From assembly GCA_016191015.1 (NCBI GenBank), contig JACPPM010000107.1, positions 1-44,533 of the forward strand: DNA of 44,533 bases, in the 5' to 3' direction. A model generated the notes under the pieces. That model saw only the letters and a program-made list of their open reading frames with translations, did not search any database and was not told the DNA's origin. This DNA comes from Acidobacteriota bacterium. GTDB taxonomy: Bacteria > Acidobacteriota > CAIWXX01. Shown one piece after another: positions 19,963-21,303 of the stretch; position 1 is the first letter of the stretch; every line of letters begins with the position of its first letter. A program made the position numbers and the translations under genes.

Positions 19963-21303
19963 CTATCGAGTCCTGTAGAGCCGGATAACAAACTGAATCG
20001 CCTTGTAGACTGCCGCGCTACATGCAACGATCAAGAACGTGCGGCCGAGCAGCACGACGAGCATCTGGACAATCCTCGCGTAGGCCGTGGGAGCCCCAAA
20101 CGCGTGATAGAGTTGCAGAACGCTCTGCGGATAGCCAACTGCTGACCGGATCACGATGTCCTTCAGGACGTAGATGACGAGGGCGAAGAACGCATAGCTG
20201 GTGACCAGATATGCGTACAGCATCGCTTTGGAAACAGGCTGGAGGCTGCTCACCGCATTCTCGACCAGTTCTCGCCCCCTGAGCCTGTAGATCATCTTCT
20301 TCAGGGCCGTGTTCGCCGATGACCGGAGGTTGGGAATCCCAAATATGTCCGAAAACAGCCAATACCCGTCCAAGCGGAAAAAAGGCGTCAAGATCACAAG
20401 AAAACTGACTGTGTTGACCATCAGGAGGAAGAACACCAGGGAAGACGAGTGCAATCCGAATGCGATGATCAAGAAGATGGAAATGAGCAGCTGAATGTAT
20501 ACGCCACCGAAATCCGTCACGACCCGCTGCCAGCGGGGAAGCTTCCATGCGTCGCTGATGTCGGTATAAGCCACGAGCATGAACAGATAGACTCCAACGC
20601 CAATCTCCTTCACGCTGGCACCGTATCTGCGGGCTGCCGTCGCGTGCCCCAGCTCATGGAGCACCCGGATCAGGTTGGCAGCCACGTACACGATCAAAAG
20701 CTTCCACGAGAAAATCTGATCCCAATCGATCATCCACGGCTTCGCCGTCATCAGCAGATAGGCGTACGACGCTACTGAGGCGATCAGCAGCGGAAAGAAT
20801 ACGGAGGGGTGGAAGATAAAGGTCATCGGCGTCGTGATCTTCTCGACTACTGACGAGCGAACGATCGGTAGCTTCAGCCACATCATCGAATTCGAGGCGT
20901 GCCTCGTGGAACGAGGGGTAGTTCCCCCTCCCTGGACCCCCCCATCAGCGAGTATCCCCTTTGGTTTGAGGTACGTGAGGATGATGTGCTGGATATCGTC
21001 CCAGGTGTACTGGCTGTTCGTTGTGCTGTTGTATTCGCTGACAACAGTATGGACCTCGTGGTGGGCGAGCAGGAGCTTTACCAAAACAGCGAGCGGCTCC
21101 GATAACCTGAAGTACTTGTCTTCGGCCTTCAGCAGATAGGTCTTGTTCGACGTTGACAGGTCCAACGGCGACAACTCAATTCCCGGGACGAGCCGCAGCG
21201 GTATCACACTCCCGCTCCCATCGAGGACTGCAAGACGCTGCTCTGTCGTGTCCATGGTTGATTCCAGTTTGCCGAGAAGTTGTGTCGAGGTGGGCCCGTT
21301 CAC
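19963..21303 (-). CDS. M50 (site-2-protease-like) integral membrane metallopeptidase with PqqD-like N-terminal region
   Basis: 'LIRVLHELGHATAARRYGASVKEIGVGVYLFMLVAYTDISDAWKLPRWQRVVTDFGG' HExxH motif in a multi-TM protein; N-terminal 'KTYLLKAEDKYFRLSEPLAVLVKLL...DIQHIILTYLKPKGIL'. GTG at 21303 or ATG at 21255. Confidence 0.85.
   Translation of the reverse strand: MNGPTSTQLLGKLESTMDTTEQRLAVLDGSGSVIPLRLVPGIELSPLDLSTSNKTYLLKAEDKYFRLSEPLAVLVKLLLAHHEVHTVVSEYNSTTNSQYTWDDIQHIILTYLKPKGILADGGVQGGGTTPRSTRHASNSMMWLKLPIVRSSVVEKITTPMTFIFHPSVFFPLLIASVASYAYLLMTAKPWMIDWDQIFSWKLLIVYVAANLIRVLHELGHATAARRYGASVKEIGVGVYLFMLVAYTDISDAWKLPRWQRVVTDFGGVYIQLLISIFLIIAFGLHSSSLVFFLLMVNTVSFLVILTPFFRLDGYWLFSDIFGIPNLRSSANTALKKMIYRLRGRELVENAVSSLQPVSKAMLYAYLVTSYAFFALVIYVLKDIVIRSAVGYPQSVLQLYHAFGAPTAYARIVQMLVVLLGRTFLIVACSAAVYKAIQFVIRLYRTR

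Follow-up and report, generated by a model that had tools for sequence, protein, structure and literature searches.

The stretch of DNA analysed here, 44,533 nucleotides of an Acidobacteriota contig and hereafter the window, encodes a predicted intramembrane metalloprotease close to two genes that each specify a peptide of only 23 residues. What does this protease cut, and in what pathway? Our analysis leads us to regard it as probably the RRE-dependent leader peptidase of a RiPP class that is uncharacterised and likely lipidated; the acylation site, cleavage site and product we infer. Sequence and structural models place a protease and an acyltransferase, both bearing RREs, beside peptides with an (I/V)xxLExR leader, and the locus holds the active-site residues of an M50 enzyme together with a set of ketosynthase (KS), chain-length factor (CLF), ketoreductase (KR), dehydratase (DH) and acyl carrier protein (ACP) genes.

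An M50 protease with a predicted PqqD-like N-terminus

19963 to 21303, minus strand: RRE-M50 intramembrane metalloprotease, 446 aa; RRE at about residues 20-115, TM helices, HELGH at 216-220, D312 of the LDG motif

The reading frame runs from a GTG codon at 21303 to 19963, with an in-frame ATG at 21255. The initial annotation had assigned the protein to the M50/S2P peptidases, and this identity was borne out by HELGH at residues 216-220 and by a match to PF02163 (Peptidase_M50; E 6.2e-9, above the gathering score). Hydrophobic segments are present, and the HExxH motif and the LDG aspartate fall in membrane helices, as in site-2 proteases. HELGH (HExGH in the alignment) and Asp312 are invariant in 73 of 73 aligned sequences, as are P307 and D312-G-Y, and we therefore take PFFRLDGYW as the second metal motif, which was found in the window protein as LTPFFRLDGYW (305-315). 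The segment TDxxDAWKLPRWQRVVTDFGG, previously put forward for that role, is conserved (W253, R260, G267), yet it does not correspond to the ligand motif.

The window protein is only about 25-31% identical to its relatives, and a tree of M50 sequences places it without resolution. An IMG/VR scan returned zero relatives of the protease, so nothing about it appears viral, and PADLOC models matched neither the protease nor the acyltransferase described below, so there is no sign of a defence role. The best NCBIfam match is NF041824 (daptide_HExxH; E 2.8e-37), whose cut-off of 300 bits is well above the 129 bits scored here. Daptide proteases also fuse an RRE to an M50 domain, and the locus could on these grounds be read as a daptide cluster. 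We consider this extremely improbable: besides the low score, the cluster has no aminotransferase, iron-dependent ADH or methyltransferase, the peptides have no C-terminal Thr, and the Pfam matches of 4436-23519 include no oxidative decarboxylase, aminotransferase or methyltransferase. The missing genes refute daptide membership.

The N-terminal region had been likened to PqqD. Pfam returned zero matches for the window N-terminus alone, and PF05402 (PqqD) matches 5 of 59 aligned N-termini (the window and 58 relatives; best 4e-5). An AF2 model of residues 17-146 (pLDDT 78) has a bbb-aaa topology, strands followed by three helices, and the top five Foldseek matches to it are PqqD 5sxy (prob 0.98) and TbiB1 5v1u (0.87-0.90), with the RREs of ThcOx and SkfB lower in the same list. 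The Foldseek E-values are 0.06-1, each weak alone, so the fold call draws its strength from how consistent the matches are; agreement of this kind would be hard to obtain by chance, and we accept the predicted domain as PqqD/RRE-like. A PDB sequence search with the domain profile put calbindins on top and PqqD 5sxy at E 0.074; the calbindin identity was dismissed as chance and the domain was assessed by fold instead.

Two small genes and a hairpin upstream of the protease

21656 to 21727, minus strand: precursor peptide gene 1, 23 aa, MYQEISIEQLETREATLTVYICN; GGAGG-type RBS, repeat unit, leader motif
21562 to 21633, minus strand: precursor peptide gene 2, 23 aa, MYQEISIEQLETREATLTVVICN; near-copy of gene 1
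21507 to 21544, minus strand: strong RNA hairpin between the peptide genes and the protease gene; 14-bp perfect stem, inverted repeat I1

The protease gene had been described as lying directly after peptide genes, and two 23-aa reading frames (21727-21656 and 21633-21562) do stand in tandem upstream, separated from its GTG by 258 nt. Each is 72 nt long, encodes MYQEISIEQLETREATLTV(Y/V)ICN and is preceded by a purine-rich Shine-Dalgarno-like site. They are contained in an 86-nt tandem repeat unit that starts at the RBS/ATG and whose copies are 87% identical. The two genes differ by four synonymous codon changes, a stop codon change and one Tyr/Val codon, and this synonymous divergence is the pattern of translated, constrained genes. 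The leader portion is MYQEISIEQLETREA, with the motif IEQLETRE; an IxQLExR leader motif is common to the precursors of relatives. The window peptide thus has the same LExR core, yet it fails the strict ELExRxE-type pattern, without an acidic residue two positions past the LExR arginine, and it is far shorter than the precursor of any relative. Its core contains neither Arg nor Lys and ends in CN.

Stem-loops are common where one transcript carries both precursor and enzyme genes. The hairpin (MFE -28.8 kcal/mol, z -4.85) has no terminator-like site or T-run, and is likely a processing or read-through stem-loop. No Rfam family matched in 18000-24000.

Relatives of the protease and their small genes

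Relatives were taken as the best 80 from a scan of genome contigs with the protease, and same-strand or opposite-strand reading frames of 18-90 aa within 4 kb of the M50 gene were searched with the pattern [LIVMF]x[EDQNKS][LIM][ED]xRx[ED]. At 47 of the 80 loci a same-strand small gene with an 'ELExRxE' leader was found, consistent with the proposed co-occurrence of M50 homologues and small genes. Across these loci there are 85 such reading frames on the same strand and 0 on the opposite strand, against 0.6 expected from shuffles; since the motif was defined after viewing the first loci, the count partly reflects that choice, while the strand contrast is unaffected. Typical leaders are SIEELEKRLE, SIVELEERFE and SVQELEQRLETDP.

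The neighbourhoods fall into four types. In many Bacteroidales loci the protease is accompanied by a SPASM radical SAM protein; in a second type, a radical SAM protein occurs together with a polyprenyl-synthase/cyclase-like protein. The third type carries an arginase (L042, L073, L080, L087, L102, L104, L105, L111 and the Chondrinema plasmid loci L028/L034) and, where the flank is long enough, mostly PKS-type genes (among KS, CLF, KR, FabZ, ACP, AMP-ligase and PPTase) together with an LpxL-like protein; as many as about eight or nine peptide genes stand in one array. In the fourth, an LpxL-like protein accompanies the protease and no arginase was found (L058, L060, L063, L064, L066, L070, L090). 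The window cluster sorts with the third type, minus the arginase. No near copy of the exact cluster was found among about 400 genomes of the phylum; G338 and G074 have an M50 gene with radical SAM or arginase, and no KS genes or ELExR reading frames in the stretches read.

Several of these loci hold features of their own. The Chondrinema litorale plasmid has about 8-9 near-identical, mostly unannotated peptide genes between ACP and M50, of the form MSKE.LKDALNIVELEERHEMTAVAA.ADRC..., with lantibiotic dehydratase and LanC genes upstream. A Flavobacterium saliperosum M50 locus (L096, 9092-9570) encodes two glycine-rich ELEERLELK(S/N)W peptides whose core is mostly Gly/Asp/Ser/Thr. RRE-M50 loci L035, L037, L039 and L078 have precursors carrying ...LETKPWICG..., possibly another unstudied RiPP type; radical SAM and polyprenyl-synthase/cyclase-like proteins are both present in L035, L039, L078 and the G008 locus L016 (9374-15031).

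The relatives also bear on a different reading of the short core. From a scaffold peptide, TglG and TmoG release the C-terminal residue in modified form (PMC10885120), and the core of the window peptides is extremely short, with conservation reaching its final Asn. The 23-aa peptide might likewise serve as a carrier, a small molecule being assembled on its C-terminal Cys-Asn and the protease freeing one or two modified residues. This appears unlikely to us, as no PEARL/LanB-type ligase is among the Pfam matches for genes 4436-23519, and in PKS-linked relatives LExR is followed by about 13-37 residues.

An acyltransferase and PKS-type genes downstream

18787 to 19935, minus strand: LpxL/LPLAT-type acyltransferase with C-terminal RRE (residues ~295-382); PF03279 7e-11, HTAASY
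18312 to 18749, minus strand: FabZ-like dehydratase; NF000582 145.7 bits against a cut-off of 113
16821 to 18038, minus strand: KS-beta/chain-length-factor-like protein without the active Cys (IMGSSS); in the tree with CLFs of Bacteroidota loci, 100/99
16041 to 16808, minus strand: FabG-like ketoreductase; family profile matches
14793 to 16004, minus strand: FabF-like ketosynthase, active Cys in STACSSG; family matches and tree
14525 to 14788, minus strand: acyl carrier protein, 87 aa, LGLDSLE phosphopantetheine motif; found in a gap
12933 to 14519, minus strand: AMP-forming acyl ligase; PF00501 6.5e-80
12114 to 12899, minus strand: metallo-beta-lactamase-fold hydrolase; PF00753 1.2e-25
4436 to 12067, minus strand: candidate export block, two TPR proteins and transport-type genes
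11204 to 12067, minus strand: second TPR-like protein; no Pfam match, aligns with the first TPR protein (E 3e-14)
8757 to 9971, minus strand: FtsX/MacB-type permease; Pfam
8012 to 8845, minus strand: LolA-like protein, PF17131; Pfam
5158 to 6435, minus strand: Omp85-like protein; Pfam
4436 to 5167, minus strand: LolD-like ABC ATPase; Pfam

The acyltransferase gene is the next gene after the protease gene. Compared with ordinary LpxL proteins of the phylum, the peptide-linked homologues are extended at the C-terminus, in the window by about 90 aa. The AF2 model of this domain (pLDDT 83) matches CteB, TbiB1, lasso peptide B1-type and other RREs at a Foldseek probability of 1.00, and the domain is thus predicted to have an RRE fold. 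Of the H-x4-D/E motif of LpxL-type enzymes the His is kept and the acid is gone across the peptide-linked group (HTAASY in the window, which fails the motif; HLGSYR and HFGNYY in others). Because the acid is absent from the entire group, acyl transfer is not assured: the mechanism may have changed to suit a new acceptor, or the enzymes may have ceased to transfer acyl chains. A tblastn search of plasmids with the acyltransferase returned zero matches; the Chondrinema copy was located by position instead. One PKS/M50 locus (L073, 5673-8017) has two tandem acyltransferase paralogues, with Lys-Cys peptides and an arginase.

The genes that follow encode a KS with its Cys, a CLF without, KR, DH and ACP, as expected of a type II (reducing) PKS. 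The KS of the window shares 47% identity with that of L042 and only 38% with the host's own FabF. In trees it is sister to Bacteroidota KSs (93/99) and the window CLF joins theirs (100/99), and this grouping argues that the window genes and M50-linked PKS genes of other loci have a common ancestry. The L073 and L087 KSs are not members of the window/Bacteroidota group. The full combination (KS/CLF/KR/FabZ/ACP/ligase, RRE-LPLAT, M50 and peptide arrays) also occurs in Chondrinema, Lewinella, Chryseobacterium and others; Spirosoma terrae and Chryseobacterium carnipullorum are relatives that can be cultured. The hydrolase at 12114-12899 is possibly a thioesterase, and its place in the pathway is uncertain. 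By its contiguity with the PKS genes, the block at 4436-12067 could possibly be a dedicated exporter that takes a lipidated product to the outer membrane; the window TPR proteins have no significant match to the one encoded in the Bacteroidota clusters. Elsewhere on the minus strand of the contig lie a sulfatase (24825-27062) and a formylglycine-generating-enzyme-type protein with an FGE-sulfatase domain (35449-36198).

Two further readings would uncouple the peptides from the PKS. M50 proteases in Firmicutes mature peptide pheromones, and the C-terminal segment TLTVVICN is small and hydrophobic; the protease might thus free a short, possibly acylated pheromone next to an independent PKS pathway. 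We find this quite improbable, given that M50, RRE-acyltransferase and KS/CLF/KR genes accompany ELExR peptides in distant loci and that RREs on both the protease and the acyltransferase point to biosynthesis. Aryl-polyene clusters have a gene content akin to KS/CLF/KR/DH/ACP/ligase/LpxL-like, and a LolA-like protein lies downstream, so that the PKS might make an aryl-polyene/flexirubin-like or storage lipid that the LpxL-like enzyme esterifies to lipid, the M50 and 23-aa genes being incidental. To this we attach very little weight: the LpxL-like protein has an RRE, unlike ordinary LpxL, and no catalytic acid, and M50 and peptides occur together across distant loci.

Arginase and the candidate acceptor

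At 8 of 9 arginase loci an Arg immediately precedes a Cys in the peptide core, and the ninth (L073) has Lys-Cys; among arginase-free loci Arg-Cys occurs only in one of two L060 peptides. The arginases all keep GGDHS and DAHTD, and several DxDxxDP, and their N-terminal domain aligns with the RRE profile of the M50 (hhalign prob 90). In the selidamide route Arg is converted to Orn and then acylated (PMC9505594). By analogy, the acceptor in arginase-bearing relatives is probably ornithine formed from the Arg beside Cys, or Lys in L073. As Arg and Lys are both absent from the window core, its acceptor must differ; the Cys thiol or a newly exposed N-terminus could serve.

Proposed pathway and comparison with known systems

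We envision that the RREs of the protease and the LpxL-like acyltransferase would dock on the peptide leader while KS/CLF/KR/DH build an acyl chain on the cluster ACP, possibly a polyene since no enoyl reductase was seen. Transfer of this chain from the ACP to the peptide's C-terminal portion would fall to the acyltransferase. The protease would then split leader from core inside the membrane, freeing a short lipopeptide, its core roughly ATLTV[Y/V]ICN or less, for a dedicated exporter. That cleavage follows lipidation is a reasonable reading of the gene order, in which the RRE-acyltransferase and then the KS/CLF/KR/DH/ACP genes come next. The broader proposal, a multi-phylum RiPP class in which an RRE-recruited LpxL-fold acyltransferase without the H-x4-D/E acid attaches a type II PKS (poly)ene chain before release by an RRE-M50, strikes us as evenly balanced between right and wrong. 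If true, RRE-LpxL-fold acyltransferase, KS/CLF and RRE-M50 loci in more than one phylum would constitute a genetically encoded lipopeptide route, and would show how the lipid A-type acyltransferase fold came to be redirected to peptides. Lipidation of ribosomal peptides was considered very rare in a 2022 review (PMC9505594). A search of the open-access literature returned no paper on the combination of RRE-LpxL-fold acyltransferase, type II PKS and RRE-M50.

The RRE-M50 unit itself is already known from daptides, whose MpaP is an RRE-dependent site-2 protease assigned leader removal (PMC10036551), and EpeP, TglG and TmoG are RiPP-maturing M50 proteases (PMC10885120). The fit to these enzymes supports, by analogy, the earlier suggestion that the window M50 could mature a RiPP by cleavage in the membrane. 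Like MpaP/DapP (NF041824) it has an N-terminal RRE fused to an intramembrane M50 with short precursor genes adjoining, but it scores below that cut-off and its cluster has PKS and acyltransferase genes instead of C-terminal amine enzymes and a C-terminal Thr. With EpeP/YydH of epipeptides and TglG/TmoG of pearlins it shares the role of an M50 protease that would mature a RiPP, whereas its cluster has no PEARL and no assigned radical SAM epimerase, and the precursors differ. Lipolanthines and goadvionins have acyltransferases and a PKS type unlike those of the window cluster. They are reminiscent of it as RiPP-polyketide hybrids (PMC9505594), but the window lacks lanthionine or avionin enzymes.

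Selidamides use GNAT acyltransferases, and the fatty acid of phaeornamide comes from primary metabolism (PMC9505594). The OspR-like arginase in relatives, and the acylation expected there on Orn/Lys, recall this class; the window cluster has neither a GNAT acyltransferase nor a peptide arginase by Pfam, the latter occurring only in relatives, and encodes instead an RRE-fused enzyme of the LpxL fold alongside a type II KS/CLF of its own. Finally, the acyltransferase shares its fold and conserved His with the LpxL/HtrB lipid A acyltransferases (PF03279), but the window-type enzyme adds a C-terminal RRE and replaces the acid of H-x4-D/E with Tyr, Arg and others.
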